Below, one piece after another: positions 1,228-29,968 of a stretch of DNA of 43,413 bases. Under the pieces are notes generated by a model that did not search any database, was not told where the DNA came from, and saw only the letters and a program-made list of their open reading frames with translations. The position numbers and the translations under genes were made by a program. How positions within the stretch are numbered: position 1 is the stretch's first letter; every line of letters begins with the position of its first letter. Origin of the DNA: Thiomargarita sp. (GTDB taxonomy: Bacteria > Pseudomonadota > Gammaproteobacteria > Beggiatoales > Beggiatoaceae); assembly GCA_020721045.1 (NCBI GenBank), contig DYNN01000015.1:1-43413 (forward strand), read 5' to 3'.

Positions 1228-1287
1228 AATCTATAAGGTGCCATAGGTTATTTGCTGGGTTTCCTTTCGTCAACCCAGCCCGCGTAG

Positions 1288-1313
1288 ATTCGATTAGCGT
1301 AGCGTAATCGGAC
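1288..1313 (+). repeat. REP-like palindrome, left copy
   Basis: A near-palindrome centred on GCGTAGCG with arms ending in TAATCGGAC. Its part 1291-1320 is an exact inverted copy of 1519-1548 (30 of 30 bases). The left arm has three mismatches to a perfect REP. Together with the right copy it brackets a decayed REP-associated transposase. Confidence 0.8.
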
Positions 1314-1377
1314 GCATGTTTATCAGATTAATAATCTCACATTTCAAAACAAAAAAATCATTAAATCATGCCCAGTG

Positions 1378-1486
1378 GATTATGTGCATGTGAATCCTTT
1401 GAAACATGTGTAAAACGTGTAGCGGATTGCCGTATTCCACGTTTCACCAACATGTCGCGCAAGGTATTTATTTACCTTGTGGTGTG
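1378..1486 (+). pseudogene. Remnant of a REP-associated tyrosine transposase (RAYT, Y1_Tnp)
   Basis: In pieces of three frames the segment spells the C-terminal signature of RAYT/IS200-like transposases: DYVHVNPLKHV, then RVADC, then with one base inserted PYSTFHQHVAQGIYLPCG. The complete family motif is of the type HVNPVKHGL...DWPYSSFH. Stops (TAA, TAG) and at least one single-base loss break it, and no N-terminal HUH motif remains. It lies exactly between the two inverted REP copies, as expected for a RAYT and the repeats it acts on. It is non-functional. Confidence 0.7.
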
Positions 1487-1525
1487 TGATATAGATATTT
1501 CGGTTGGTGGCGGCGAATAACATGC

Positions 1526-1551
1526 GTCCGATTACGCTACGCTAATCGGAC
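1526..1551 (-). repeat. REP-like palindrome, right copy
   Basis: The arms GTCCGATTA and TAATCGGAC form a perfect 9-bp stem around CGCTACGC. The block 1519-1548 is the exact reverse complement of 1291-1320. Confidence 0.8.
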
Positions 1552-1646
1552 CTACGGTCTCTGAGCAATAATTGCTTAAAAAGCCTGTATTGCCATGTCA
1601 CATTATTTTTCATTGCATTTAATCTCCAAAAACAATGACTTTTCTG

Positions 1647-1680
1647 AAAAATAGGTACATCCCAAACCGGCGATGTACCT
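1647..1680 (-). terminator. Rho-independent-type terminator of the 1711-5919 gene
   Basis: On the minus strand AGGTACATC and GATGTACCT form a 9-bp stem followed by ATTTTTC. It lies 30 bp beyond the stop codon of the giant vWA gene. Confidence 0.65.
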
Positions 1681-1710
1681 AAACCTATCCACATCCTTGT
1701 TGTAAACGAC

Positions 1711-9842: not shown

Positions 9843-11522
9843 ATGATTCATCTAAACGTATTTGAGCAATACGAAATTGTCAGTGATAAAAATACTCTTC
9901 GTCGTTTTAGAACTGCTTGGCCTATTATGATAGTGGCTTATATTATTGTTGAACATAATAGAAAAATTGATATCAATCAATTATGTAATTTATTTTATCC
10001 ACTAGTGCCATTATTACCAAACGATTCTCTTCCTGTAAGTCAAGCTATTTATGAAAAATTATGGAATTATGTGGGCAAGAGAGAAGTCAATAGTGTTGAA
10101 ATAGAAAACACATTTATGTCTCAATTTTCTGATGATGACATTATTCATGCATGTGAACAATTAAAACAATACAGAATTATTCAAACCGTAGAACAACGAG
10201 ACAATTATTTTTTTTATACTTTGCCTGACAATTTACGTAAAGCTATTAATAGTTGTCATATTGATGCAGATAAAATATATAAAAATAAAAGAACAATATT
10301 GCAAAATATTGATTATATTAAAAAACATTTTCGTTTATATAGCAAATTGATTTATTCTCAGCATAATTTACTCGTTGTAATATTTGATAGTAATATTATT
10401 CAACTTGAAACCGCTTTATTAAATAATGATTTTGAAAAAATTAAAGAAATTTATCGTGGTCCCTTTTTACATAATATTGAAGATGATATACGAGCAACTG
10501 TTTGGCTTTCTCCAATGTTACATTGTTGGTTACAAAGTAAACGATGCTATTTCGCTGAAAGAGTTGCTACTGCTTTAGTAAATTTATTGACTAATAAATT
10601 GACTAATAATAAGTTATCAGAAAGGCAACGTTTAATTTTAGCAGAAGAAGTGAAGAATTTTTGTCAACAAAGTCAATTAAATAACACCTTGTTAAATAAT
10701 ACTATTCTTAATCTTCAAGCATCATCGTCTAACTCAGAAATTCAAAAATCAGAACAACCTAAAAAAATTCAGCCCATGGATCCTAAAAATGCGGAAGAAT
10801 CAATTTTCCCGCCTGAGCAAGATAAATATTTCGAGCGTATTTGTACCCATTTGACTAATAAAACTAATGATTATTGCGAATCTCAATTAAAATTGATTGC
10901 ACCGAACTTAATTGATTTACATCTCTCCATACAGAAACTAAATGGTGATTCTACTCAACAAACTTACTTGCTTTATAATACTGAACTATTACAGTTTATT
11001 CGGGATAAATGTTACAATTTAGCGATTTTATTGGGTGAAGCGGGTAGTGGGAAAAGTTTTGCGTTATATCATTTTGCAAAACAGTTAGTTGCGCAGAATG
11101 AACAATGGATTCCTTTGATTTTTCACTTTGCTGATTGGGCAAAACTTGATTTTGAAATGTGGCTTAAACATGAGTTAATTGAATTGGGTTTACCAAAAAA
11201 TAGTATTAATCAAGATTTTGAATTGTTGTTAAGATCAGGGCGTATTGTTTTATTGTTAGATGGATTTGATAATATACTTAATATTAAGCGTTTTTCTGCC
11301 TTACATGCAATTAATCATTTTATTAAAAGTTACGGTGAAATTGAGCTAAATTTCATTATTACGAGCCGTCCTGATGAATATTTTTTGTCTAAAGCAATAT
11401 TTATTAACGAAAATACTACACTACATTTTTATGCTGAAGCGACTATAAAAACTTTAGATCAGGCAAGAATTCGTGCTTATCTTCAACAATATTTCTCTAA
11501 TATTTCTCTTGTCAGCAGATAG
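9843..11522 (+). CDS. NACHT NTPase, N-terminal half of a frameshifted gene
   Basis: 559 residues. The N-terminal about 170 residues are helical and unrecognised. A STAND-type NACHT NTPase follows, with Walker A GEAGSGKS near residue 398, IFHFADWA, Walker B IVLLLDGFDN near 470, and sensor-like IITSRPDEYF. Such proteins act as ATP-driven switches, and some bacterial NACHT proteins defend against phage. The frame ends just after RAYLQQYFSN because 11 bp (AATATTTCTCT) are duplicated in tandem at 11488-11509. Removing one copy joins this frame to the next one in a natural way (QQYFSCQQIDNLF). Base composition is extremely AT-rich (line 10261 has 9 G/C of 60). Confidence 0.85.
   Translation: MIHLNVFEQYEIVSDKNTLRRFRTAWPIMIVAYIIVEHNRKIDINQLCNLFYPLVPLLPNDSLPVSQAIYEKLWNYVGKREVNSVEIENTFMSQFSDDDIIHACEQLKQYRIIQTVEQRDNYFFYTLPDNLRKAINSCHIDADKIYKNKRTILQNIDYIKKHFRLYSKLIYSQHNLLVVIFDSNIIQLETALLNNDFEKIKEIYRGPFLHNIEDDIRATVWLSPMLHCWLQSKRCYFAERVATALVNLLTNKLTNNKLSERQRLILAEEVKNFCQQSQLNNTLLNNTILNLQASSSNSEIQKSEQPKKIQPMDPKNAEESIFPPEQDKYFERICTHLTNKTNDYCESQLKLIAPNLIDLHLSIQKLNGDSTQQTYLLYNTELLQFIRDKCYNLAILLGEAGSGKSFALYHFAKQLVAQNEQWIPLIFHFADWAKLDFEMWLKHELIELGLPKNSINQDFELLLRSGRIVLLLDGFDNILNIKRFSALHAINHFIKSYGEIELNFIITSRPDEYFLSKAIFINENTTLHFYAEATIKTLDQARIRAYLQQYFSNISLVSR
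11488..11509 (+). repeat. 11-bp perfect tandem duplication that breaks the NACHT gene
   Basis: AATATTTCTCT occurs at 11488-11498 and again at 11499-11509 with nothing between. Because 11 is not a multiple of three it shifts the frame and creates the TAG at 11520-11522. The length equals the target duplication seen at both MITE copies in this window. Confidence 0.9.
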
Positions 11523-14788: not shown

Positions 14789-17700
14789 TTATTGATTTAA
14801 TTCAGTTTTCGTATCATTCCAATGTGTAGCACCATCACCACAATCACCAGAAACTAACGCTTTTAACACAATTCCTTTGTCCTTAATCTGTGTTGTCAAA
14901 GCAGCCATATCCGCATCAGGATAAGGAGAAGCATCAGTTGAAAATACAATCACACCGCCTTCTTTAGTATGGCTAATCGCTAAATTCAACGCTTCAGCAC
15001 TGGCTTCTGGGCATAATCCACCGCCTTCTACGGTTAAACTACGCACCGCTTTCAGTAAAGTGTCCATGTTATCAGTGAAAGCCCGTAATACAACGTTGTC
15101 TTTAAACTCAACTAACGCCACTTTTGGCATAATGCCGCCTTTACCAGCTTGTTCTTGAATGAATTTTTCGATGGCAGCTATAACACCATTCAGTTCTTCA
15201 TCCATAGATTTAGTGGTATCGACAACTAACACGATGTCAGCAATCGCATTCGGTGGAATCACAATATTAGTGCGTTCTCTGTCAGTATGCGCAGGATAGT
15301 TGGTAGCAGAGACTTTAGCTTCATGAGTCAATATCAATAAGCCTTCATCAAGCAATTTAACGTTCATGTCAACAACCGCACGACTGATACTGTCAGGTGT
15401 TGCAACACTTAAGTCATTTAATTGACAGGTAATCACTGGGAAAGCACTGCTATCACAATTGCCATACTCAGTATTTACGTCAACCAATTCAGTACCTTTA
15501 GGTAATTGCATGGTTAAGTTAATACCAGTTGCAGTATCTTCAGGTGCAAGCGCACTCAACTCTACAACTGCTTGATAATGTAGACCACTTTGCATCACGA
15601 CAGGATCAGGTGTATCAACTAATGTGACAGATAAATGAGGCTTCACTGCTTTGAAACTTGTTTTAACATCAACAGGATATTCATTTGAAATTAAAGTTGC
15701 AGTTGTTTTTACGGTATTGGCTTGATCAGCACGTAAAGTGAGTTTAACTCTAGCAGTGTGACCGGTTGCCAAATCAGGTAAAGTACAGGTTAGTGTAGTA
15801 TTGTCACATTGTGCTTCAGCACTTTCTAACGCTACTAAACTCGTGCCTTCAGGTAATAAATTAGCTAATGTAACACCTGTCGCAGTTTGTTCTCCACCAT
15901 TAACAACATCAATGGTATACGTCAATGTATCGCTTTGAGCAAGTGCTGCATAACTACTGGGTTTAACTACCATTTTTAAGCTAGTGACAAGTTCACAATC
16001 GACTACTTGATGATAATCGTTGTTACCTAATTCAAAGTCAGTATTAAGGCAATTAAAGTTATCTTTGGTGGCAACGATGTCATATTTTCCTTCAAATAAG
16101 CCATCAATTGACCAATTACCCAATTCATCAGTCATAGTGGTTTTATCACCGACTTGGACAGTGGCATTAGCGATTGGATTACCGGCTTTGTCTTTCAATG
16201 TGCCAGCGGTGGTATAAGACCCTTGTGGTTCACTTAATACCATGATATCAACGGATTGAGTGGTATTTTCACCTTCTAACGTAATAGCAGCATTGGAGAA
16301 AGTATAACCTTCTTTAGTCGCTGAGAAAGTGTAGTCACCAATAGTTAAGTCATTGATTTCCCAATTGCCAGCGTCGTTAGTGGTAGCAGTTTTGTCATTG
16401 GTAGAGATGGTTACACCAGAAAGTGGTTTACCTGCTTTGTCAAGTAAAGTACCGTGTGTGGTGTAAAGGACGGCGGTAAATTGTGCAGAGCAAGATTTAG
16501 CAGCGTCCATTGTCAGCGTGTCAGTGGTACAATCTCCTGACCAGTTGGCAAATTGATAACCATTAGCGGGTGTTGCGGTTAATTTAACTTCAGTATTGAG
16601 TGTGTAATCTTCAGTGCAATCTTCACCACAATCAATGCCTTGTGCAGTGACAGAGCCTTCGCCTGATTTAGTAAGGGTTAAAGTTACTTTTTCAGGTTCA
16701 ACCACTTCTGCTTTTTCAACAGCCGCTTGCACTTGCGTGGTGGCGACTACGGTTGAATCTGCTTGAGAAGTGGCAGTCACCGTAATAACGTCGTTACCTT
16801 CTGTAGGCAAAGTGACATTGAGGTTCAAGTCAGCGCGTTTGAGTCCTTCAACCGTCACTGTTGCGGGCAAGCCATTGACAGTCGAACCGTTTTTACTGGT
16901 AACGGCGAACGTGTAAGTATCTGATTTGGGGCCGCCATTATGTAAGGTGAGTTGTATAGGCACCGTTTCGCCCACTTTACCAGTTACCCATTGAGAACCA
17001 GAGAAAACAGCATGGTAGATAATTTTGTTGCCACCACGCACGACAACACCGGAACTGACGAGATTCTCAATTGTAACACCTTTGTCCAAGACCAAGTTGT
17101 CAGCATAAATTTCAATCTTCCCGCCAGCTTTGAAGGCTTTGCTGGTGATACCACGTAAATCAATGGTTCCACCACTCCCAACAGCGAGAATGATATTTCT
17201 GCCGGCTGTGATCGCATTCTCTTGTAAGGTGGTCATTCTCAAGACGTAGTTGTCGCCACCAAAGATAACGACATCTTCATCAGCAGTAATTGTGGTGTTG
17301 CCAGAAATTTCTATCGTATCTGGTTCAACGTAAACTGAACTACCCTTCAGAGCAATCAAATTGCCGAGTTGGCTAACAATAACAGGGCTACCATTAACAA
17401 GTAAGGTGGATGTCAGTAATTCTAAATTGCCTCCATCACCGCCTTCGATCTCATTTACGCTCATGCAGTAAATGTCATTGAAATTAGTGTTATCAATGAC
17501 CACAGAACCACCCATACCTCCAGAAGAAGAGGATGAATTGCCGAGAGTGAGGGCACCTCCGCTTATCGTTGCATTACCAGCAAAATTTGATGGGGTAGCT
17601 AAACCTATAGTAGCGCCGGGTGCGTTCCCCGCATTGTGTTCCCATACCCACGCGGCATAACAATCAGAAAATCTGATTTCACTGCCTTGCCCTGCGAACA

Positions 17701-18775
17701 ATTCACCGTACTGGTAGGTGTTATCAGCAGTAATTGTTACGTTGCCCCCAAGCGACCAACTTTGAGAAAATGTTCCTGCCTCAGTGTTGTCGATATTGTG
17801 GGTAGAGGCGTTACCAGCTTGTATTGTTCCCAAGTTGACTGCCAAACTAGCACTCTGTAATGTGATAGAGGCACCGGGTTGGTTACTATCGGCAGGGGCA
17901 TCAGCCCCTATTATCTCGCCATCCTCAAAATTGGCGAAAACCCCCAAGTTCGAATCAAACTGTATCTTGACATCTTGATTACCGTCACTTACTAGAGTGC
18001 CGTGATTACATAATGAGGTAACTGTTGCCATGGTACCACTACTGAAATAGGAACTGACGGCAACTTTACCGTAAACAAACACTCTGTTACTAGCGAACAG
18101 AGCATGATTATTGCCCGGCCAAGGTGAAGTGAGGGAGTAGTTGTTGTAGTCACAGCTTATACCAGATGGTGGTGTCACTCCCGCACAAATAATTTTACGG
18201 TATGCAGAGTCAGTCACATCGCATTCTTGGCCTACGATAGGGGGAATTGGTAGTGATTGCCCAAAATCAGGAAAGGGGAAATCTATTTTGTTATTCACAA
18301 CGGCTGAACCAGTATCTGTCCAAGTGATTGTACTCCCTGCGACCGTAATTTTCAGCACCTGGTTTGAATTACCAGTATTGGCCCACTGAACGGTATTAAG
18401 CTGGAAAGTGGTCAATACCGCGGGGTCTGCAAACTGCCAGACTTCATAGTCACCATCTGGTAACACAATCGTATAGTTACCTCGAACAGGTGCTGTAAGT
18501 TGAGTCAACTGAGGATTGTTCAACAATTTGAACACGATATAGCTACGGGCAGTGTACGGGGGTTCAGGGTCACTATTCAATGGTGTGATGGCAAATGGTG
18601 TAGTATCAATAAATCTTTGCCCTTGCAACGTAGCAGCCCACGCACCCGCCGGCACCGCCACACACCCAACTAAAGCCAACGCCATTGCATAAGCCAAAGG
18701 CTTCTTTTGAAATCTGTTTGAGCGATTAGTCACTCGTTTTGTGGCACATGTTGTGCTAAACTTTTTAGTCGACAT
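14789..18775 (-). CDS. Giant secreted protein: beta-solenoid-like N-terminus, InlB repeat, regulatory-like and DUF11 domains, C-terminal vWA
   Basis: 1328 residues. Unusually long basic signal (about 1-48, MSTKKFST...PLAYAMALALVG...AWA), shared with the 25724-29968 protein. Residues about 180-580 are short beta repeats rich in Gly, Asn and Ser. Then follow an all-beta block shared with the 1711-5919 protein (540-690), one InlB-like repeat with Cys (697-768), two carboxypeptidase-regulatory-like domains (about 772-845 and 855-930), DUF11-type domains (932-1175) and a vWA with MIDAS DTTKS at 1186, EGGGLCPEAS and STDAS. The 3' end is identical to that of 25724-29968 over 156 bp (14855-15010), a sign of recent duplication or gene conversion. 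GGAGA precedes the ATG, downstream of the shared leader RNA. Role inferred: surface or matrix protein. Confidence 0.85.
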   Translation of the reverse strand: MSTKKFSTTCATKRVTNRSNRFQKKPLAYAMALALVGCVAVPAGAWAATLQGQRFIDTTPFAITPLNSDPEPPYTARSYIVFKLLNNPQLTQLTAPVRGNYTIVLPDGDYEVWQFADPAVLTTFQLNTVQWANTGNSNQVLKITVAGSTITWTDTGSAVVNNKIDFPFPDFGQSLPIPPIVGQECDVTDSAYRKIICAGVTPPSGISCDYNNYSLTSPWPGNNHALFASNRVFVYGKVAVSSYFSSGTMATVTSLCNHGTLVSDGNQDVKIQFDSNLGVFANFEDGEIIGADAPADSNQPGASITLQSASLAVNLGTIQAGNASTHNIDNTEAGTFSQSWSLGGNVTITADNTYQYGELFAGQGSEIRFSDCYAAWVWEHNAGNAPGATIGLATPSNFAGNATISGGALTLGNSSSSSGGMGGSVVIDNTNFNDIYCMSVNEIEGGDGGNLELLTSTLLVNGSPVIVSQLGNLIALKGSSVYVEPDTIEISGNTTITADEDVVIFGGDNYVLRMTTLQENAITAGRNIILAVGSGGTIDLRGITSKAFKAGGKIEIYADNLVLDKGVTIENLVSSGVVVRGGNKIIYHAVFSGSQWVTGKVGETVPIQLTLHNGGPKSDTYTFAVTSKNGSTVNGLPATVTVEGLKRADLNLNVTLPTEGNDVITVTATSQADSTVVATTQVQAAVEKAEVVEPEKVTLTLTKSGEGSVTAQGIDCGEDCTEDYTLNTEVKLTATPANGYQFANWSGDCTTDTLTMDAAKSCSAQFTAVLYTTHGTLLDKAGKPLSGVTISTNDKTATTNDAGNWEINDLTIGDYTFSATKEGYTFSNAAITLEGENTTQSVDIMVLSEPQGSYTTAGTLKDKAGNPIANATVQVGDKTTMTDELGNWSIDGLFEGKYDIVATKDNFNCLNTDFELGNNDYHQVVDCELVTSLKMVVKPSSYAALAQSDTLTYTIDVVNGGEQTATGVTLANLLPEGTSLVALESAEAQCDNTTLTCTLPDLATGHTARVKLTLRADQANTVKTTATLISNEYPVDVKTSFKAVKPHLSVTLVDTPDPVVMQSGLHYQAVVELSALAPEDTATGINLTMQLPKGTELVDVNTEYGNCDSSAFPVITCQLNDLSVATPDSISRAVVDMNVKLLDEGLLILTHEAKVSATNYPAHTDRERTNIVIPPNAIADIVLVVDTTKSMDEELNGVIAAIEKFIQEQAGKGGIMPKVALVEFKDNVVLRAFTDNMDTLLKAVRSLTVEGGGLCPEASAEALNLAISHTKEGGVIVFSTDASPYPDADMAALTTQIKDKGIVLKALVSGDCGDGATHWNDTKTELNQ

Positions 18776-19311: not shown

Positions 19312-22300
19312 TTATTGACTTAATTCTGTTGCAATATCATTCCAAGCATCTATATTTGAACAGTTGCCTGATAATAAAGAAGTCAATTTGATTTGCTTAG
19401 CTTTCAATTTAGCCGCTAAACCATCAATATCCGCATCTTCATAAGGGGCTGCATCAGAAGCAAAAATCACAGCACCACCTTGTTTTAAATGAGGAATAAT
19501 TCTATCAATGGCTTCAACTGAGGCTTCAGGACAAGTGCCACCGCCTTCTGCGACTAAACCACTTAATGTCTTCTTCAATAAGGCTAAATCAGAAGTAACC
19601 GCTTGTACTGTCACAGAATCTTTAAAAACAACTAATCCAATCACAGGTGCTGCATTATTTCCTAATTTATCAATCAGTTGACTAATAGCCCGTACTGAAC
19701 CATTGATTTCTTCTTGCATACTACCGGTAATATCCAACACAATCGCTGCATCTACAGTTCCTTCACCAATGTTGACTACAGTCCGTTCGCGTGCTTTGTG
19801 AGTTGAAAATTCATTGCTGCTGACTCGTGCTTCATTGACAACCAATAATAAACCTGGATCGTCTAATGTAACACGAATACCTACTGTAACTCGACTGATA
19901 TCACCGGGATTTTCTATACTTAAATCGCTGATTTGACAAGTAATAGCTGGTAATTTACTGGTGTCACAAGTCGTATTTTCATCAGTTACCACTTCTTGGA
20001 ATGTCACATTGCTAGGTAAATAATCTACTAATGTTACACCCGTCGCTTTGGTTTTACTCATTTCAGCGGCATAAGCACTTAATTCAACAACCACGCTATA
20101 ATACAAACTAGAAGTTGGTAACACTGGATCAGGTGAATCTGTGATAGAAACAAATAAATAAGGATTCACGGTTGTCCAACTCTTCTTAGTAGATACTGGA
20201 TATTCGTTGGTCAGAAGTTCAAATTCATTCATTAAAGTGCCACTGCCTTCAGAATGTAAAGTCAGTTTGACCATCGCTTGTTGATTAATGCCAATATCTG
20301 ATAACGTACAAGTCAATAGATTATCTAATGGTTGACATTGTCCACCTCCTAATGCTTCTGCTGATACTAAGGTCATATCACTAGGAAGTTGATAACGTAA
20401 TACCACACCTGTTGCAGTCACTTCACCATAGTTACTGGCTGTAATAGTATGAGTGACGGTATCGCCTTGATAAATATTCCAATTATCTGAACGACTGTCT
20501 ACTACTAAAGAGGAAGTGGGTGTTTGCGTGGGTAATCTAACAACACCATTGATTGCAGTATTATTGCTGACAATTAAATCAACAGAATCAAATTTATATC
20601 CTGTTTTATCTAGGTTAAGTGTGTATTCTCCTTCATTTAACCCTTCAATTCTAAAGAAACAAGAGTTGTCTGAAAAAGCTAACTGTTCACCTGTGTCTAA
20701 TTGAACATCGGCAATAGGTGCACCGACTGCATCCAATATACAACCTTCTACACTGTATGGTCCTTTCGCAACGACTTCAAAACCTTCTAAAATCGAAGCG
20801 AATTCGTCATCGGTATACATGTAGATATCGGTTAAACCTAACACAGCTTCACTGTCAATTTGAATCAATGCCACCGCTTGCGTTGCACTGGTAATATTCA
20901 ATTTCAATACGTAGATGTCTTCTGTACCAAATCTTAATTCAGTCACATCTTGTACAAAGTGGGTATTAATGGCATCAATGGTGATTTCACGCACTGCGCC
21001 TTGTGTACCACGATTAGGCGTGACTTGAGTTAAATAAGGCACAGTCCCTTCTGTAAGATTAGGGGTAATTAATACTGCACCGTCTTTAGGTGACGCTTTC
21101 ATTGAACAATCAGTGCTGATTTCTACACCATTGGTTTTGATAGACATCTTGTGTGTGCCTAATTGGGCATTGCTGACATCTAAAGTCGCAGTGAGAGAGG
21201 TGACACTGTTGATTTTAATGCTCTTTACAACAATACCTGAGCCTGACTCAAAACTGAGCGTTGTACCCGCAGCCAATTGCGTATTTGCCATATTCACTGT
21301 GATTTCAGCATTGCCACCGCGCATAATGCTGTCAGGCGTTACGCTTAAAATAGTGGGTTGTGTTGAACTCGCCACGACTTCTACTACACCAATACCGGTT
21401 GCTGAGTCTGTGACTTCGCCATTGGTCGTAGCGACAGTTACATCATAAAATTTAACACTGGCATTGGAAGCTACACTGATATTGGCTTTCAATTTGGTTG
21501 GAGAAACCATTTCTACTGCATTAACTGTGATATCACTACCAAAAGATACTTCACTGTCTGCATTAAAAGCAACATTGGCTGCATTTAAAACAACATCAGT
21601 GGTCGTTCCTTGTGGAATCGCATTAGGAGTTACAGTCGTTACTGTGGGAGATACACTACTCTTGAGTAAATTAACTGCTACTTTTTGATAATAAGTCTTA
21701 CCGGTTGTAGAGTTATCGTTGACTTCAAACGGTGTGACAAATAAACCACCGGTTTCACTGGCAATGCGAGAGAAAGTATTAATTGCGCTAATGCTGTCTT
21801 TATTGGCTTCACCGGTATCAACACCACATAAACCCGTGCATTCTTCACCAGATAAAATGACATCAACTCGCACACCTTTAGCACGTAATGCAGTGATTAA
21901 GGTATCAACATCAACATCAGGATGACTAGATGCATCAGTAATCACAATCATGCGCCCGCCGACTTTGACTAAATCTTTAGCGGTATCTAAGGCTTTTAAA
22001 GAAGCTTCAGGACAATCTGCACCTCCATCGGCTCCTAATTGTTTAATACCCGTAATAAAATTACTGTATCCGTTGAGCAACCAATTCATATTGTTAGTGG
22101 CAGCTAATCCGCCGGAACTTCCTAAAATACGATTAGTGACATTGTCTTTAAAAGTGACTAAACCCACATTAGGTCCAGTTTGTCCAAAAAGTGTCATGTA
22201 TTCAGAAATGGCATCACCTAAAGCAGTCAATTCTTCGACCATGCTACCGGTATCATCAATGATAAACATCAAGTCTGCATCGCCAACAGGCATAGGAGGC

Positions 22301-24660
22301 GGTGGTGGAGGTAATGGAATAACGGAGAAAGTGTTAGAATTTTCTTCTAGAGGAATTGTTTGATCACTAGAAAGAATTAAAGTCAGTTTACCTTGCCCTA
22401 CTCGCACTGATTTAAGATTTAAATGTACTGAGATGCCTGTATTAGGTGGTAAAGTATCTAAGTAACAAGTTATGATTTTATCACTACTGATGCTGCACTG
22501 TTGTGATCGGTAACTATCACGAGCAGCTCTTCTAGCATTACTAGTTGATTCAACAGGAATAACTTCAGCAGATTCCAATTCAACGAGTTCAGGTAACGCG
22601 ATTTTGATGGTTGCATTAGTCACTGCTGTGGTTGCTATTGCGTCATTAATAGTAGTTAGTGTATAAGATGTTGTTTCTCCTAATTTTAATTGATTTTTTC
22701 CTTCAGTTTTATCTAAGTAAAATTTAGGTAGAACTTTAGTGATAGTAGTTAAAGGTTGTGATAATTTAACACCATCAATAACTGAATTAACGTTACACAA
22801 CCCATAATCTTCACACCCTATACCTGTTGCTTTAAAATTTAATGTCCAAGGCGGCAAAGTACCACTTCCTCCACCACAAGAAGCCACTGTTACAGCAACT
22901 TGCATTGTACAAGTTAAACCATCAGCAGTAGTATTGCAAGGTTGTTGAGAAGAATTTTCTTTCACTGAACGTCCTCCTAACATGATTAGAGAACCACAAT
23001 CTAATCTTGCGCCACCACATTGACTTGGAAAAATAAAAGGGGGGACGGTAGTAAACGAACCACTGGTAACATTAACAGCAGGATAAGGACCATTACACAT
23101 AGTTGAATTCAATTTTGGTATAGGTGAATCAATGACCTCAAGTTGTTGATATTGAAAACCACTAGGCAGAGCAGGATCAGCAAATAATCTTACGTTGTTC
23201 ACAGGACCTGCACCAAAATTTTCAATTTCTAAATAGAAAGTTTTACTTCCACCACTTACCATCTCATTGCCCAAGTCTCTTCTAACTTTTGGCTGTATCA
23301 ACTTCATTGAAACTTTTGGTGTAAAATCAAATGTTCCTAGTCCTGCTTGAACAACTCTGTCATTTACATTAATGGTTTTAATAACACTACCATAACCTTC
23401 TTTAGCAACACTCACGGCTATATCATATGCACCTGAGTTATATACACCTTTCAAAACAAAATTGCCTATATTATCAGGATGTGCTGTGGCAACTATAGCA
23501 CCAGTGGAATCTATTGCTTTAACCGTGATGTCAGATGGTTGAATGGCAGTATCTGCTAACTTGATATTGCCATATACATAGTAACCATCAGTATTAATCG
23601 CGAACATGGTCGGTGCTTGAATGCTAGGAGCAGTGTCACTTACAGCAGCAACAACAGAAACTTCTTTATAACCATTGTGTTTAATAGTTGGAATATGTGC
23701 GCCTGGTGCAGAAACCACCATTTGGTACTTACCAGTCGCATCAGTAATTGCAGAAACACTCCCATCCATTACTGTAATACCAGAAACAGGTTTATTATAA
23801 ACATCGTACACTAAACCATAGATAATATACCCATCTACCATGTAGAGAGTGTACATTTTATACAGTGGCTGAGTTTCAGTAAGTATTATAGAGTGTTCTA
23901 GCGTTTTACCATTTTTAGATAATTTAACAACTTGATTGCCTGTTGTTGTAATCCCTGAAACAGTATAATTACCACTACCATCTGTGGTTGCACTACGACC
24001 AGCAACTTGTACTGATACCCCAGCTAATCCTTGTCTGTTAATATCTTGTACCGTTCCTATCACCGTATATCCGGTGACAATCTGTGTGGAAATAGTTGCA
24101 CGTGGACTATTGTCATTAACACCAAATCCTCTATTAACTGCTAAATAACCCGATTTTTCAAACTTAAGCGTGTAAGAACTGGGTTCAGAGAAATTAATAA
24201 CATAGTTACCACTGGTATCAGTAGTCGTTGATCCCTTTTCAAAAGAAACGGTTACACCGGCTAAACTAGCTCCATTTTCATCTGTTGTGCGACCAGTGAC
24301 TTGATAACCATTAACCGTTTTAATCGCATAACGATATCCTTGATCATCACGAGGATGATTAGAACCTACATTGAAATTAACAGAAAATGGCTTGTAACCA
24401 TCAGTTGACATTGCCAAAGCGTAACTGCCTTCAGCTAAATCTGAAATGACGTAATAATTTCCGTCAAAACTAGCGGTTTTACCGCCGGCGGTGACTGTGA
24501 GGTTGCTCACAGGTTGACTTGATGTATCCAGAAAACGAATTTTAACTTCGTAGGCGAATACACTTGCTGATTGGACTAATATGCCTAGCATAAGCCATTT
24601 GATTATAATTTTGATAATATAATTGGCATTTTCTTTGCATAAATGTCTCACTGGTGTCAT
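19312..24660 (-). CDS. Giant secreted protein with tandem regulatory-like domains, two vWA domains and IPT/TIG-like repeats
   Basis: 1782 residues. Signal/anchor about 15-37 (YIIKIIIKWLMLGILVQSA). Then five or so tandem carboxypeptidase-regulatory-like beta domains (about 38-445; pattern G-x-V...ATTDGSGNYTVSG), DUF11-type domains (about 450-780), a proline linker, vWA-1 (794-1000, MIDAS DDTGS at 802), three IPT/TIG-like domains (1003-1300; VTPNAIPQG, VTPDSIMRG, VTPNRGTQG), one more regulatory-like domain, two DUF11-type domains (1385-1630) and vWA-2 (1632-1782, MIDAS DITGS at 1643). Both MIDAS sites look intact. The motif ARRAARDS (709) recalls the RG-x-RD motifs in two other secreted proteins here. 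Preceded by leader copy B. Probable surface or matrix protein; ligand unknown. Confidence 0.85.
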   Translation of the reverse strand: MTPVRHLCKENANYIIKIIIKWLMLGILVQSASVFAYEVKIRFLDTSSQPVSNLTVTAGGKTASFDGNYYVISDLAEGSYALAMSTDGYKPFSVNFNVGSNHPRDDQGYRYAIKTVNGYQVTGRTTDENGASLAGVTVSFEKGSTTTDTSGNYVINFSEPSSYTLKFEKSGYLAVNRGFGVNDNSPRATISTQIVTGYTVIGTVQDINRQGLAGVSVQVAGRSATTDGSGNYTVSGITTTGNQVVKLSKNGKTLEHSIILTETQPLYKMYTLYMVDGYIIYGLVYDVYNKPVSGITVMDGSVSAITDATGKYQMVVSAPGAHIPTIKHNGYKEVSVVAAVSDTAPSIQAPTMFAINTDGYYVYGNIKLADTAIQPSDITVKAIDSTGAIVATAHPDNIGNFVLKGVYNSGAYDIAVSVAKEGYGSVIKTINVNDRVVQAGLGTFDFTPKVSMKLIQPKVRRDLGNEMVSGGSKTFYLEIENFGAGPVNNVRLFADPALPSGFQYQQLEVIDSPIPKLNSTMCNGPYPAVNVTSGSFTTVPPFIFPSQCGGARLDCGSLIMLGGRSVKENSSQQPCNTTADGLTCTMQVAVTVASCGGGSGTLPPWTLNFKATGIGCEDYGLCNVNSVIDGVKLSQPLTTITKVLPKFYLDKTEGKNQLKLGETTSYTLTTINDAIATTAVTNATIKIALPELVELESAEVIPVESTSNARRAARDSYRSQQCSISSDKIITCYLDTLPPNTGISVHLNLKSVRVGQGKLTLILSSDQTIPLEENSNTFSVIPLPPPPPPMPVGDADLMFIIDDTGSMVEELTALGDAISEYMTLFGQTGPNVGLVTFKDNVTNRILGSSGGLAATNNMNWLLNGYSNFITGIKQLGADGGADCPEASLKALDTAKDLVKVGGRMIVITDASSHPDVDVDTLITALRAKGVRVDVILSGEECTGLCGVDTGEANKDSISAINTFSRIASETGGLFVTPFEVNDNSTTGKTYYQKVAVNLLKSSVSPTVTTVTPNAIPQGTTTDVVLNAANVAFNADSEVSFGSDITVNAVEMVSPTKLKANISVASNASVKFYDVTVATTNGEVTDSATGIGVVEVVASSTQPTILSVTPDSIMRGGNAEITVNMANTQLAAGTTLSFESGSGIVVKSIKINSVTSLTATLDVSNAQLGTHKMSIKTNGVEISTDCSMKASPKDGAVLITPNLTEGTVPYLTQVTPNRGTQGAVREITIDAINTHFVQDVTELRFGTEDIYVLKLNITSATQAVALIQIDSEAVLGLTDIYMYTDDEFASILEGFEVVAKGPYSVEGCILDAVGAPIADVQLDTGEQLAFSDNSCFFRIEGLNEGEYTLNLDKTGYKFDSVDLIVSNNTAINGVVRLPTQTPTSSLVVDSRSDNWNIYQGDTVTHTITASNYGEVTATGVVLRYQLPSDMTLVSAEALGGGQCQPLDNLLTCTLSDIGINQQAMVKLTLHSEGSGTLMNEFELLTNEYPVSTKKSWTTVNPYLFVSITDSPDPVLPTSSLYYSVVVELSAYAAEMSKTKATGVTLVDYLPSNVTFQEVVTDENTTCDTSKLPAITCQISDLSIENPGDISRVTVGIRVTLDDPGLLLVVNEARVSSNEFSTHKARERTVVNIGEGTVDAAIVLDITGSMQEEINGSVRAISQLIDKLGNNAAPVIGLVVFKDSVTVQAVTSDLALLKKTLSGLVAEGGGTCPEASVEAIDRIIPHLKQGGAVIFASDAAPYEDADIDGLAAKLKAKQIKLTSLLSGNCSNIDAWNDIATELSQ

Positions 24661-24790
24661 ACAATATCTCCAGTAAATGTTGATATTAAGTGTCGCTAAA
24701 ACGGAACGGCATAGTTTCGTCCTGCAAGATTCTGCTATGTCGTTCCCCCTACCTTAATGCTCCCACTTAATTTAAAAGCATCAGGTAGTA
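24661..24790 (-). ncRNA. Leader RNA copy B, the most diverged copy
   Basis: Same architecture as copy A but with different bases in the helices. P1 is CTACCTGATGCT (24788-24777) with AGCATTAAGGTAG (24761-24749). The pseudoknot is ATTAAGTG (24771-24764) with CACTTAAT (24692-24685). The hairpin is GGAACG-A-CATAG with CTATG-C-CGTTCC (24746-24703). Each change on one strand is matched on the other. The pseudoknot ends 24 nt before the ATG at 24660. Confidence 0.7.
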
Positions 24791-24803
24791 AACCACTTCC
24801 AAC

Positions 24804-24893
24804 TTATTGATTTAACTCTTTTTTCACATCATTCCAAGACGATTGTCCCGTTGTACAATCACCAGAAATCAACGCATTTAACACAATTCCTCT
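24804..24893 (-). pseudogene. 3' remnant of another vWA paralogue
   Basis: The minus strand reads RGIVLNALISGDC then TTGQSSWNDVKKELNQ and stop, matching the last residues of the 14789-18775 and 25724-29968 proteins (KGIVLKALISGDC...WND). Homology ends abruptly at about 24893, where the YoeB gene region begins, so the rest of that paralogue was deleted or replaced. Confidence 0.85.
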
Positions 24894-24909
24894 ACCCAAA
24901 ATAAAGATT

Positions 24910-25167
24910 TTATTCCTGATAGTGGTAACGACACTGGACAATAATTAATTCCTCTGTCATGAGGGTATAAACCAAACGGTGTTCATCATTAATTCGGCGT
25001 GACCACAATCCTGCAAATTGATGTTTCAACGGTTCCGGTTTTCCCAAACCCGAAAAAGGGGTCCGTTGGATGTCTTTAATCAAAGTGTTAATCCGTTTTA
25101 ACATCGATTTATCCGTTTGTTGCCAATACAAATAATCTTCCCAGGCGCGTTTTCGGAAACTAATCAC
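24910..25167 (-). CDS. yoeB: YoeB/Txe-family toxin (RelE-type mRNA endonuclease)
   Basis: 85 residues, the usual length. It has the family course FRKRAWEDYLYWQQTDK, INTLIKDIQRTPFSGLGKPEPLK, WSRRINDEHRLVY and the C-terminal CRYHYQE carrying the catalytic His-Tyr pair. YoeB cleaves mRNA on the ribosome and is neutralised by YefM. It starts with GTG overlapping the antitoxin stop by 4 bp (GTGA), so the pair is translationally coupled. It lies right next to a truncated vWA gene end, hence it was probably inserted into, or replaced, a member of the giant gene array. Confidence 0.92.
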   Translation of the reverse strand: MISFRKRAWEDYLYWQQTDKSMLKRINTLIKDIQRTPFSGLGKPEPLKHQFAGLWSRRINDEHRLVYTLMTEELIIVQCRYHYQE

Positions 25168-25433
25168 GAGTCTTCCTCAAGTAATTCTCGTCGGACTAGA
25201 GTTTGCCGGTCTTGAAGTTCCTGCATGGCTGACATTAAATCTTTAGCATTGGCGGGGGAACGGGTTAAATATGCCGTTTCTTGCCAAGCATTGAAGTCCT
25301 CTAAACTCATCATCACCACTGGTTGGCAATATTCACTGGTAATGACGAGAGGGACATGGTCATTGGTCACTTTAACCATCATGGTAGGTAAATTATTGAC
25401 AATCTCTGTATAATTAATGACTTCCATTTTCAC
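25164..25433 (-). CDS. yefM: YefM-family antitoxin
   Basis: 89 residues of Phd/YefM type. The N-terminal fold is INYTEIVNNLPTMMVKVTNDHVPLVIT then QPVVMMSLEDFNAWQETAYL, and the acidic C-terminal tail (RRELLEEDS) binds YoeB. AGAGGTG lies just before the ATG. The protein usually represses its own operon together with the toxin. The 4-bp overlap with yoeB and the gene order (antitoxin first) are typical. Confidence 0.92.
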   Translation of the reverse strand: MKMEVINYTEIVNNLPTMMVKVTNDHVPLVITSEYCQPVVMMSLEDFNAWQETAYLTRSPANAKDLMSAMQELQDRQTLVRRELLEEDS

Positions 25434-25461
25434 CTCTTTAGGCTAATTGGTTGAAGGTATA

Positions 25462-25555
25462 TTCCATTAGAAGTCAGAATCAGAATTTCCAGAATGCAAC
25501 CCCTAACCTATTCTGAAAATCCTAAAATCCTGTAAATCCTGATTCAGACAACAAT
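25462..25555. repeat. Short degenerate repeat cluster (TCCTGTAAATCCTGATTC type)
   Basis: Several overlapping copies of a 9-11 bp unit (TCTGAAAATCC, TAAAATCC, TGTAAATCC, TGATTC) lie between the antitoxin gene and the next giant gene. Such AT-rich periodic repeats are common in intergenic DNA of cyanobacteria and large sulfur bacteria. No coding potential is seen. Confidence 0.45.
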
Positions 25556-25573
25556 AGTTCATTTACCGCGAAT

Positions 25574-25699
25574 GATGGGTTTCAGCGCGATTAAGTTCTT
25601 CGTCAAACCGAATAATTTTGCCGCGCCTCTACCCATCCTACGAACTGCCAATTGGTTAAATAATACTGTAGGGTGTGCAACGCCTTTTTGTTGCACACC
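25574..25699. repeat. REP-like palindromes downstream of the 25724-29968 gene
   Basis: GATGGGT (25574) pairs imperfectly with ACCCATC (25631). A stronger hairpin is GGTGTGCAA / TTGCACACC (25672-25699, loop CGCCTTTTTG), 25 bp past the minus-strand stop. No T-run follows on the minus strand, so these look like dispersed REP elements that may also protect the transcript end. Confidence 0.6.
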
Positions 25700-25723
25700 G
25701 TTGGTAATAAAGTGTTTTATACT

Positions 25724-28700
25724 TTATTTCGCCTGTTTCTCCGCTTCAATGTCATTCCACGATTTTTCACCGTCTGTACAATCCCCAGAAATTAACGCTT
25801 TTAACACAATTCCTTTGTCCTTAATCTGTGTTGTCAAAGCAGCCATATCCGCATCAGGATAAGGAGAAGCATCAGTTGAAAATACAATCACACCGCCTTC
25901 TTTAGTATGGCTAATCGCTAAATTCAACGCTTCAGCACTGGCTTCTGGACATAATCCGCCACCTTCTACGGTTAAACTACGCACAGATTTCAGTAACGCA
26001 TTCATATCATTCGTAAAAGCTCGTAGTGTAACATTGTCCTTAAACTCAACCAAAGCCACTTGCGGCATCATACCACCTTTAACCACTTGTTCTTGAATAA
26101 ACTTTTCAATAGCAACGATAACACCATTGAGTTCTTCATCCATCGACTTCGTCGTATCAACCACTAACACAACATCAGCCACTGCATTCGGCGGTACCAC
26201 GATATTCGTGCGTTCTCTGTCGATATGAGCAGGATAATTGGCAGCCGATACTTTGGCTTCATGCGTCAAAATCAACAAACTCGCATCCGTCAATTTCACA
26301 TTAACATCAACAACTGCACGACTAATGCTATCAGGTGTTGCAATACTCAAGTCGTCTAACTGACAACTAACAACAGGATAAGCACTTGAATCACACTTAC
26401 CATATTTTGTAGTAACATCAACTAATTCCGTTCCTGTTGGCAATTGCAGAACGACCGCTATATCAGTGGCAATATTTTCAGGTGCAAACGCACTCAATTC
26501 TACGACCGCTTGATAATGTAGACCACTTTGCATCACGACGGGATCAGGTGTATCAACTAACGTGACAGACAAATGAGGTTTGACTGCTTTGAAACTTGTT
26601 TTAACATCAACAGGATATTCATTAGAAGTTAAAGTAGCAGTTGTTTTCAAAGTATCAGCTAAATCGTTATGTAACGTCAATGTAACAACAGCAGTTGCGC
26701 CTAGTGTTAGATTTGGCAAAGTACAAGTTAAAGTAGCCACATCACATGAACCTTCAATACTTTCCAAAGCCACTAAAGTCGCACCTTCTGGCAAAATATT
26801 ACTTAAAGTAACACCGGTTGCAGTTTGAGAACCGCCGTTGACGATTGTCATGGTATAAGTTAAGTCTTCACCTTGTTTGAGGTTCTCGTAAGTACTGGGT
26901 TTGACAAGCATTTTAAGCGCGATCAACGGGGTAATGGTCACTTCGGTCATGAGGGTTTCGTTGCCAATATCCACAGTCGTTGGGGCAAAAGTGTAGCCAT
27001 CTTTGCTAGCCGTGACGGTGTAAGTGGTTTCGTCCAGGAGACCGTTGATTTCCCAGTTTCCAAGGGCATCGGTGGTGGCGGTTTTGCCGTCGATGTCGAT
27101 GGTGACGCCGGCAATGGGGTTACCTTGGTCGTCATGGAGAGTGCCGTGGGCGGTGCGGTCGCCGGTAATCACTGGAGGAGGCGTAATGGTCACTGGTTCA
27201 ACCACAACGTTGCCGTCTTCACTGAGTGCCGTGACTTCTTCACCGCTGCCCGCAATCATCGTTTGACGGTCTTCGGTGGTGCTGAAAGCTAGGGTTTGTT
27301 CGCCGCCACTTTGGAGAAGAGTGAGTTTAATCGTCACTAATTCTACCGTTTGTGTCGGTGCCGGATTGTCCCACACGCCCGCCGCAAAGTTGATTTCGCC
27401 TTTGGTATTGTCAAAGGTGTCTTCCAAGGTGACATCAAACGATTGACCGGTCTGCAAGCCATTGACTTGCAATTGAGTGGGGTCAAAGTTGAGATAGACC
27501 GCCGCACCATCTGCCGCTTGTGCTTCGTTGGCATTGACTTGGATGGTGTAAGCAAAGGTGTCGCCTACTTTTAAGCCCGTAGGAAGAGTCGTTGCGCCAA
27601 GGGTAACGGTGTTGCGATTGCCATCACGGACTCCTTTACGGTACATTTTGGAAGTGGCATTCCATTTACACCCAGAAGGCTTTTTGTAGTTGGCCTTATA
27701 TAAAGCCAAATCAGCCGCGTCAACACACGAACTCACATTGAAGTCCGCTTGAGGGTCATACTTGGTACTTGCCGCGCCTTTGCATCCTTTGTGGTTAGTC
27801 AGGAAGGAGAAATCTAGCGCGTCCACGGTGTTGTTATTAGTCGCGTCCCCTTCTAACAAGGTTCTAAAGTCAACGGGATTGCCAAATGGTTGCACGACCT
27901 TGTTAGCTAGGGTGTGTGAGTTTTTCACGCAGATGTAATCACCCGTTGCCACTGGTTTGCTGAGTACTAACGTTCCCGTTCCGTTTGCCTGGCAAGTCGT
28001 TGGGTACTCTACGGCAGAGGTAGCACTTCCCAGAGAGACTTTTAAGTCCGTTACCCAAGAAGCATTGCCTATTGGGTTCGCCCGTTGCAAGTTGACCTTG
28101 TAATTCAAGCATTGGTTAAGCGTCAAGGTATTGTCGGTAGCCATGACGTTTATGGTTTCCCCGCCGGAAGTCAGCATGAGGCTGTCGTCGAGGAAGTCTA
28201 ACAGCGTCGTTCCTGCCGTACTGGATAAGGCTGTGAAGTTGATGGTGAATAAGTCAAAAGCGTCCGTGGGTGCTGGTTTATCCCAAGCCCCCGCACTAAA
28301 GTTGATGGTGCCGGTCGTGTTGTCATAGTCACTGGTCACAACGGTATCCATCACGCCGCTGTTGGTGACGCTATTGACTTTCAACTTACTCTTGTCAAAT
28401 TTGAGGACCAGTTCGGTACCGTCTATGGGTTGCTTGTCCTGTTTGTTGACACGAATGGTGACGTTGAAAGTGCTACCAGCGCATATAGAGGCGGGCGGGG
28501 TGGCAACGATTTCGGTTGAAGCACCTGTGTAGAGTTGCTTGATTTCGGCTTCGGTGAGGGCGCGGTTGTAGAGGCGGAGGTCGTCAATAACCCCTGGTGT
28601 ATAATCCACAGATTGACGACTCAGACTACCATGTTTTCCAATGAAAACATCAGTATTGTAGGAACTGATTGGGGAAGAGTTAGGCAAAGTCGTCGAAATC

Positions 28701-29968
28701 TTTTCTAACTTCCCGTTGACATACACCTTTAAAACGGTACCATCAAAAGATGTGGTAATATGATTCCACTTACCAACCACATCTGTTGTACCCATTTTTT
28801 TACCACCTGTTGTAAATGCAGTTGGTATGGCAGTACATCCATCAAAACTGAAGTTACCGCTGTTATTGTACTGATCACCTCCTACCCCAAGATGCCATTG
28901 ATAGTATGGGGGAGTATGACTTGTGTAGGGTTTGTGGATTATCACGTTATTCCCATCACCCGAAAAAGACTGGGTAGCAAAATACCAAGCACTGACAGTA
29001 ATCTGCTTCGGGTTCAGTGTGTCTGAGTTCTTGATGCGAATATAGTCATCTACTCCATCAAAACGATAAGCACTGTTAGTTTTTCCAAATCTATCGGCAG
29101 TCAAAGTAGCACCATTGACCGTGCCATTATTCCCATTCCCACTCCCATCATTCGCATTACCATCAAAGGGATAGCAAGCGACTAGGCCTTCCTTAACTAT
29201 ATCACAACTACTAACTTTGGGAGGAGGAATATCACAACCTTCCTGCCATGTTGTTAATCCCCATTGAGCTTTGCCGTTTCCACTTCCTATGGGCGTTCCC
29301 GCTCCTGTAGCAGTATTAATCTTTAACAACAATCCACTCTCTGTTACCCCATATAACACACCATCTTTAAAAGACAAACCATATACCGTTGAATATCCAA
29401 TAGCGCCAATCAAAGTAGCTTTTCCGGTGTTGACATCAACAGTTACCAATCTATCTCCACCGGATACTGTGGCATACAACTTACCATCACTATCAAATGC
29501 CAAATCACCACTGGAGTAGTATCCGTTCTCATAACTGCCGATTTTTGTTGCTGCTCCGGTTATTGGATTAATTTCAATGAAATCCGATCCCCCCGCAGCA
29601 TATAGCTTACCGCTAGATGATACTGCCAGCGCGTTCACAGAATAGCCAATATTACCGATTACAGTATTTTTTCCAGTCATTGGATCAACCCTGCTAAATG
29701 TTGACCAATTTACATTGTATAAGTTTGAACAATCAGACGCAATATCTGTTGATCCGCCAGTCGCTCCTATGAAGGAAGTTGCTCCAGAACTATGGTCAAC
29801 AGTATACAAATTACCACCAGAGTCAACTGTATATAATGTCCCTGCCCATACATTTATGGACACCACCGTCCCCGCCATCAACGCCAACGCAATCGCCCGC
29901 GCCAACGGCTTTCTGTTCTGTACCAACTTGACATTGGCACGTTTACTGCTAAACTTTTTAGTCGACAT
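25724..29968 (-). CDS. Giant secreted protein: propeller, LamG, cohesin-dockerin-cohesin-like, DUF11, C-terminal vWA
   Basis: 1414 residues. Signal about 1-42 (MSTKKFSSKR...AGTVVSINVWA). Domains by eye: a beta-propeller with YTVD / G-x-L-Y-A strands (45-245); a LamG/concanavalin-like domain (255-483, YPFDGNANDGSGNGNNG...YRFDG); a cohesin-like domain (490-618, FDKSKLKVNSV, INFSAGAWD); a dockerin-like pair of Ca loops (706-762, GDATNNNTVDALDF and ADFNVSSCVDAADLALYKANY); the dibasic motif YRKGVRDG (776); a second cohesin-like domain (798-925, INFAAGVWD); a regulatory-like domain (938-1010); DUF11-type domains (1018-1260); and a vWA with MIDAS DTTKS at 1271. The cohesin-dockerin part is markedly richer in G/C than its surroundings. 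Preceded by leader copy C. Confidence 0.87.
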   Translation of the reverse strand: MSTKKFSSKRANVKLVQNRKPLARAIALALMAGTVVSINVWAGTLYTVDSGGNLYTVDHSSGATSFIGATGGSTDIASDCSNLYNVNWSTFSRVDPMTGKNTVIGNIGYSVNALAVSSSGKLYAAGGSDFIEINPITGAATKIGSYENGYYSSGDLAFDSDGKLYATVSGGDRLVTVDVNTGKATLIGAIGYSTVYGLSFKDGVLYGVTESGLLLKINTATGAGTPIGSGNGKAQWGLTTWQEGCDIPPPKVSSCDIVKEGLVACYPFDGNANDGSGNGNNGTVNGATLTADRFGKTNSAYRFDGVDDYIRIKNSDTLNPKQITVSAWYFATQSFSGDGNNVIIHKPYTSHTPPYYQWHLGVGGDQYNNSGNFSFDGCTAIPTAFTTGGKKMGTTDVVGKWNHITTSFDGTVLKVYVNGKLEKISTTLPNSSPISSYNTDVFIGKHGSLSRQSVDYTPGVIDDLRLYNRALTEAEIKQLYTGASTEIVATPPASICAGSTFNVTIRVNKQDKQPIDGTELVLKFDKSKLKVNSVTNSGVMDTVVTSDYDNTTGTINFSAGAWDKPAPTDAFDLFTINFTALSSTAGTTLLDFLDDSLMLTSGGETINVMATDNTLTLNQCLNYKVNLQRANPIGNASWVTDLKVSLGSATSAVEYPTTCQANGTGTLVLSKPVATGDYICVKNSHTLANKVVQPFGNPVDFRTLLEGDATNNNTVDALDFSFLTNHKGCKGAASTKYDPQADFNVSSCVDAADLALYKANYKKPSGCKWNATSKMYRKGVRDGNRNTVTLGATTLPTGLKVGDTFAYTIQVNANEAQAADGAAVYLNFDPTQLQVNGLQTGQSFDVTLEDTFDNTKGEINFAAGVWDNPAPTQTVELVTIKLTLLQSGGEQTLAFSTTEDRQTMIAGSGEEVTALSEDGNVVVEPVTITPPPVITGDRTAHGTLHDDQGNPIAGVTIDIDGKTATTDALGNWEINGLLDETTYTVTASKDGYTFAPTTVDIGNETLMTEVTITPLIALKMLVKPSTYENLKQGEDLTYTMTIVNGGSQTATGVTLSNILPEGATLVALESIEGSCDVATLTCTLPNLTLGATAVVTLTLHNDLADTLKTTATLTSNEYPVDVKTSFKAVKPHLSVTLVDTPDPVVMQSGLHYQAVVELSAFAPENIATDIAVVLQLPTGTELVDVTTKYGKCDSSAYPVVSCQLDDLSIATPDSISRAVVDVNVKLTDASLLILTHEAKVSAANYPAHIDRERTNIVVPPNAVADVVLVVDTTKSMDEELNGVIVAIEKFIQEQVVKGGMMPQVALVEFKDNVTLRAFTNDMNALLKSVRSLTVEGGGLCPEASAEALNLAISHTKEGGVIVFSTDASPYPDADMAALTTQIKDKGIVLKALISGDCTDGEKSWNDIEAEKQAK

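Follow-up and report, generated by a model that had tools for sequence, protein, structure and literature searches.

A conserved cohesin-X-dockerin-cohesin cassette in a secreted protein of Thiomargarita sp., with possible calcium-dependent self-docking

The window, a stretch of 43,413 nucleotides from a Thiomargarita sp. contig, encodes on its minus strand a large secreted protein in which a dockerin lies between two cohesins. The features of the gene, from the amino terminus of the protein onwards, are the following.

25724-29968, minus strand: whole gene, secreted multidomain protein of 1414 aa (P0001; open reading frame and Pfam)
29843-29968, minus strand: long signal peptide, aa 1-42 (by eye)
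29234-29842, minus strand: head 1, DUF4394/propeller-like, aa 43-245 (PF14339; limits by eye)
28538-29059, minus strand: LamG/concanavalin-like domain, aa 304-477 (PF13385, Laminin_G_3, 1.6e-21)
28115-28516, minus strand: Coh1, first cohesin, aa 485-618 (PF00963)
27860-28114, minus strand: X domain, aa 619-703 (conservation within the cassette; CnaB/prealbumin-like by eye)
27671-27859, minus strand: dockerin, aa 704-766 (PF00404 and conservation)
27812-27847, minus strand: calcium loop 1, D708 to D719 (both invariant in 14 of 14 cassettes)
27710-27745, minus strand: calcium loop 2, D742 to D753 (both invariant in 14 of 14 cassettes)
27605-27670, minus strand: linker between dockerin and Coh2, with C767 and the basic motif RKGVRDG, aa 777-783 (alignment, motif search)
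27194-27604, minus strand: Coh2, second cohesin, aa 789-925 (PF00963, 34.5 bits, and model match)
26963-27148, minus strand: CarboxypepD_reg stalk domain, aa 941-1002 (PF13620)
26606-26890, minus strand: DUF11/CLIPPER-type stalk domain 1, aa 1027-1121 (PF01345)
26219-26578, minus strand: DUF11 stalk domain 2, about aa 1131-1250 (PF01345 in two stretches; limits by eye)
25760-26173, minus strand: C-terminal vWA, aa 1266-1403 (PF25106, 2.4e-21)

An earlier note on this DNA had described a two-loop dockerin-like segment flanked by cohesin-like segments, and all four motifs that it quoted are present: INFSAGAWD at aa 555-563, GDATNNNTVDALDF at aa 707-720, SSCVDAADLALYKANY at aa 746-761 and INFAAGVWD at aa 859-867. 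Its statement that LamG and vWA share the chain holds as well, with the E values listed above for PF13385 and PF25106. The interval in which it had placed all three modules, 27600-28520, does contain Coh1, X and the dockerin, but the second cohesin lies outside it, at 27194-27604, with its INFAAGVWD motif at about 27368-27394. Absent from that description was X, a domain of about 85 residues between Coh1 and the dockerin; the Pfam scan of the protein returned no match for it (aa 619-703).

Head 1 reached 30.1 bits with PF14339 in the Pfam scan of the protein, against a cut-off of 29.6. At the other end, the vWA is shorter than its profile, with positions 2-140 of the 169 in PF25106 matched. 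Both DUF11 domains (26219-26890, minus strand) seemingly lack, by eye, what we take to be the Asp and Asn of the CLIPPER isopeptide bond, and the first of them (26606-26890, minus strand) retains a short Cys-Cys loop, also by eye.

The gene is one of four paralogues in the window (1711-5919, 14789-18775, 19312-24660 and 25724-29968, all on the minus strand) that combine different fronts with the same CarboxypepD-DUF11-vWA tail. Over the last 328 residues, the other three are 61, 83 and 43% identical to the 25724-29968 protein, and a fifth relative at G000:C23 is 78% identical. In all four paralogues, the profile match of the final vWA stops at position 136-140 of 169, with the end of the protein soon after; the domain is likewise short in the relatives L033, L058 and L055. 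Between two of the paralogue genes, the stretch 24661-25723 presumably carries a Phd/YefM-like antitoxin and, after it, a partner with a broken frame (also by eye), together with a remnant of a vWA end at 24816-24902 (66% identity). Elsewhere on the contig, 9843-11522 (plus strand) encodes a NACHT-domain protein (PF05729, 2.2e-9) and is followed by an open reading frame that has no Pfam match.

The identity of the two cohesins was established by sequence profile, both copies exceeding the curated cut-off. In the protein scan, PF00963 scored 57.5 bits for the whole protein (cut-off 24.1, E 2.2e-15), and the genome profile search resolved this into 47.0 bits for Coh1 at 28148-28480 and 34.5 bits for Coh2 at 27206-27580. 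AlphaFold models were made of dockerin-linker-Coh2 (six alignment rows, mean pLDDT 53.8) and of the whole cassette (three alignment rows, mean pLDDT 48.7). In the former, block values of pLDDT for Coh2 were 60-88 across model residues 91-200 and 29-50 across the last 26. When the Coh2 model was compared with solved structures, the top matches were cohesins (Z 12.4, 2.8 A over 126 residues), as were the first 43 of the 50 matches listed (Z 12.4 to 10.0); in the last seven (Z 9.7-9.2), further cohesins were mixed with other proteins, among them the pilin SpaD and a CLIPPER (DUF11) domain. The presence of the latter two at these Z values indicates that Ig-like relatives are not far off. The Coh2 model shows the nine-strand cohesin fold, and Coh1 was seen in the low-confidence cassette model only. 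Foldseek with the cassette model gave four matches at E <= 0.001, namely three cohesin-dyad chains and one unrelated surface protein. Two cohesins do flank the dockerin, and neither a non-cohesin Ig fold nor a lack of paired loops, which the earlier note had named as counter-evidence, appeared, the dockerin itself being modelled at pLDDT under 50.

Type I dockerins contain two calcium loops with ligands at positions 1, 3, 5 and 12. Both loops are found in the window protein and are conserved across cassettes. PF00404 matched aa 707-758 with 22.1 bits in the protein scan (cut-off 22.9) and the dockerin with 26.9 bits, above the cut-off, in the genome search; pLDDT stayed below 50 in both models, so that neither fold nor docking is visible there. 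In an alignment of 14 cassettes, from which the near-identical L004 and the incomplete L048 and L040 were left out, positions 1 and 12 of both loops (D708, D719, D742 and D753) are invariant in all 14. Position 5 of loop 1 (N712) and positions 3 and 5 of loop 2 (N744 and S746) vary among D, N and S only. Exceptions to the type I pattern are position 3 of loop 1, which is T in the window protein and variable across cassettes, and L055 and L040, in which loop 2 is one residue short (17-row alignment).

The same order of modules recurs across the family. Cohesin matches at E <= 0.01 numbered 45 in 14 of the 42 family genomes, and dockerin matches at E <= 0.05 occurred in 15 of the 42. Nine of the 13 family dockerin matches at E <= 0.001 lie between two cohesins; one follows a cohesin at a contig end and three have no cohesin on the contig. 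By profiles built in this analysis, with two of the versions described below (B and C) read partly by eye, 40 of the 45 cohesin matches stand in the order Coh-Doc-Coh. Three of the five exceptions are truncated where a contig stops (G017:C226, G017:C374, G053:C138), one has X-Doc-Coh2 without Coh1 (G001:C538), and in one the dockerin is in another frame (G049:C742). Version A, which includes X, comprises the window's own copy and 14 further copies (that of L059 being truncated in Coh2 by the end of its contig). X is missing from version B (G053:C228, G049:C542, G052:C28, G020:C459 and G052:C58, the last with only its first loop fitting the calcium-loop pattern). Version C (G002, G056:C46, G056:C98) has X plus a segment that resembles a dockerin, carries three calcium-loop-like stretches and was given no match by Pfam. 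A chance motif was rejected in view of the Pfam support and the same module order in the 14 further copies. For 13 version-A relatives scanned as proteins at E 0.001, Pfam returned PF00963 in 10 cases and PF00404 in 4, two of the latter above the cut-off; our own profiles therefore carry part of the weight. The cassette profile finds 16 of the 42 family genomes, many of them sources of its rows, with several matches each in G053, G049 and G056. By eye, L038, L039, L052 and L053 have three-loop-like dockerin segments between cohesins that Pfam missed, and L038 carries a tandem Coh-X-Doc-Coh-X-Doc-Coh.

The cassette behaves as a unit, since the neighbouring domains vary widely between relatives. 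They include LRR (L059, L034, L051), Calx-beta (L034), subtilase (L061), RCC1 (L032), FG-GAP with LamG (L004), PKD with an SdrD-like domain (L037) and BACON with a pilin domain (L049); the CarboxypepD-DUF11-vWA tail also stands beside the cassette in L033, L058 and L055. The L049 protein (293-5782, minus strand) ends in the pilin domain (PF00114, 4.6e-8). A strict pattern scan of genome contigs, which reached other phyla too, returned two related loci, L004 in a Thiomargarita sp. (best segment 82% identical) and L005 in a Thiotrichaceae MAG (50%), in keeping with the sulfur bacterium that the earlier note had presumed. Between the window protein and that of L004, identity is 94% in Coh1, 81% in X, 51% in the dockerin and 93% in Coh2, as against only 35% in the LamG domains; the signal peptides are very similar, and the first heads differ, with FG-GAP repeats (PF13517) in L004 and a propeller-like head in the window protein. 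A comparison of L004 6186-10088 with window 25724-29968 thus suggests an exchange of heads between close relatives.

The own genome (3.39 Mb in 253 contigs, 99.92% complete) contains one dockerin at E 0.001, out of 10 candidates scored, and two cohesins, out of 6 scored; all three are in the window protein, and the cassette profile matches once only. The search for other dockerin proteins that the earlier note had proposed therefore yielded none over threshold, and no further profile-detectable cohesin was found in this genome. As the profiles found no separate partner in the genome, any pairing would be homotypic, with the protein itself or with its own copies. A cellulosome was rejected, no dockerin-bearing enzymes having been found and the only over-threshold dockerin of the genome sitting in the window protein.

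Beyond the family, a sample of the class had cohesins in 21 of 369 genomes (the own genome and a few family members included), and the cassette was absent from the 27 class-sample loci outside the own genome, inspected together with some 1.5 kb of flank to either side. Small proteins in G116 combine a single cohesin-like match with a single dockerin-like one. Among 398 genomes of a phylum sample, which may overlap the class sample, the full cassette profile matched in the own genome alone; three more matches covered 55-120 positions around the dockerin. Among the papers searched, none joined Thiomargarita or Beggiatoa with dockerin. Coh1-X-Doc-Coh2 is a real, conserved and unusual arrangement of known modules.

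Cysteines in and around the dockerin follow a regular pattern. In 17 aligned rows, C680 in X and C767 just after the dockerin occur together in 14 and are both missing from 3, never one alone, which suggests a disulfide that joins X with the dockerin's end. Two of the three rows without them (L034, L061) share a genus, and the covariation therefore amounts to about two independent losses. Inside the dockerin, C729 and C748 are both present in 11 rows, both missing in 5 and mixed in 1; in X, C623 and C667 are both present in 5 rows and both missing in 12. Known dockerins join their two ends by a clasp, according to PMC5934362, and by analogy the X-dockerin disulfide would be a covalent form of it.

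The linker from the dockerin to Coh2 is about 22 residues long, and C767 is separated from the Coh2 core (F805) by 35-45 residues in 15 of 17 rows and by 29 in two rows of genus g18. The peptide motif [KR][KR]GxRD[GS], present in this linker at 27620-27640, is seen also at 8756-8776, 7871-7891 and 22513-22533 (all on the minus strand, the last as RRAARDS). Large extracellular family proteins contain it repeatedly, in many cases within the linker between dockerin and Coh2, and one further copy lies in G000:C126 (L107). The looser pattern [KR][KR]..R[DNST] gave 16 matches in 30 proteins, compared with a mean of 1.1 and a maximum of 5 in 200 shuffles, the proteins being related and mostly picked for the cassette, so that matches are not independent. 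A DNA repeat behind the RRGxRD motif was rejected, as codons differ among the sites. As a DNA pattern, the motif showed no enrichment in the own genome, with 4 matches (HSGYRDG among them plainly false) against 9 for the reversed control.

We favour, with a probability of roughly 0.42, a reading in which the window protein, secreted or located at the surface, resembles an adhesin, with a variable head (propeller and LamG), a stalk and a vWA tail, and in which the stalk docks onto itself in a calcium-dependent way, mostly within one chain. The adhesin-like part fits because DUF11 is, according to PMC12617251, the CLIPPER domain of adhesin stalks. Two calcium ions would fold the dockerin, a disulfide between C680 and C767 would tie it to X, and it would dock on a cohesin of its own kind, most likely Coh2 of the same chain, since Coh2 comes after a short linker. 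Such docking would close this segment of the stalk into a rigid, calcium-dependent knob, and Coh1 would stay open and could accept the dockerin of a neighbouring molecule. Known cohesin-dockerin pairs bind with a Kd of 1e-9 to 1e-11, as quoted in PMC9705933. If the affinity here were similar, with Coh2 only about 22 residues away, docking would be expected within the chain unless geometry forbids it, in which case chains would form. We therefore consider intrachain docking at least as likely as the self-polymerisation proposed in the earlier note. Against self-docking, descent of the cassette as one block would likewise preserve the order of its modules; moreover, the dockerin is near the Pfam cut-off, and loop 2 is shortened in L055 and L040.

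A more elaborate version, in which the disulfide-stapled dockerin sits on its own chain's Coh2 and the [KR][KR]GxRD motif of the linker serves as a processing site, seems to us decidedly improbable. Were it true, head and tail would after cleavage be held together by the calcium-dependent cohesin-dockerin bond alone, and could be released or exchanged upon a change in calcium.

Chaining between molecules, with each dockerin inserted into Coh1 or Coh2 of the next to give extracellular chains or branched trees, is the main, though rather unlikely, alternative that the homotypic partners (the only ones found in the genome), the one socket in excess over plugs, the multiple cassette matches in G053, G049 and G056, and the tandem in L038 would all suit. 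With one plug per chain, however, n chains can form at most n bonds; one plug and two sockets would thus yield single rings or trees with branches but no cross-linked gel or matrix, and the shortness of the linker to Coh2 speaks for docking inside one chain, geometry allowing. It is less probable still that cohesins and dockerin have become structural spacers, Ig-like and EF-hand pieces of a stalk that have lost their mutual binding. Their position next to other stalk-type domains (CarboxypepD_reg, DUF11) points that way, as do the shortened loop 2 of two version-A rows and the single fitting loop of G052:C58, whereas all 14 aligned cassettes share the same outer calcium ligands and a plug and two sockets were kept together in three versions. 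We regard as very unlikely a heterotypic use, in which free cohesins hold dockerins of other organisms or own dockerins too divergent for Pfam. Dockerins could indeed have been missed, as Pfam missed the version C segments; yet when 10 dockerin candidates of the own genome were scored, that of the window protein alone passed E 0.001.

Calcium-dependent self-docking, the reading we prefer, would be of interest because plug and sockets are found nearly always on one chain and in one order in this lineage. As no other partner was found in the genome, self-docking is testable with one fragment of 441 residues. If the binding is real, the cassette would be a naturally self-clasping surface module, capable of calcium-controlled stiffening or linking of sulfur-bacterial surface proteins.

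Among known systems, the clostridial adaptor scaffoldins and CipA, with its order Coh9-X-Doc, likewise place cohesin, X module and dockerin consecutively on one chain, and the Coh2 model fits clostridial cellulosome cohesins (PDB 3kcp, 4fl4 and 3l8q among the matches) at Z 11-12. The window protein differs from these scaffoldins in the second cohesin that follows the dockerin, in the probable disulfide between X and dockerin and in what appear to be an adhesin-type head and tail; and, unlike in clostridial cellulosomes, no dockerin-bearing enzymes were found in the own genome. In the scaffoldin-like proteins of ANME archaea (PMC9012536, in a section that gives no module order), one dockerin is likewise combined with several cohesins, up to five, outside cellulose degradation, but ANME genomes have separate dockerin proteins (e.g. 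ABC substrate-binding), of which our profiles found none in the own genome. The proposed planctosome of Planctomycetes is another non-cellulosomal chain with dockerin and cohesin; its adaptor, as presented in PMC6461901, has a dockerin, a HYR domain and one cohesin, with peptidase binding proposed and no Coh-Doc-Coh order described in the passages on it. Finally, the noncellulosomal cohesin of Archaeoglobus fulgidus (PDB 2xdh) has the same fold as the Coh2 model (Z 10.8) and belongs to a cohesin-dockerin pair that is archaeal, unlike the window protein, and that PMC9705933 gives as validated for binding.
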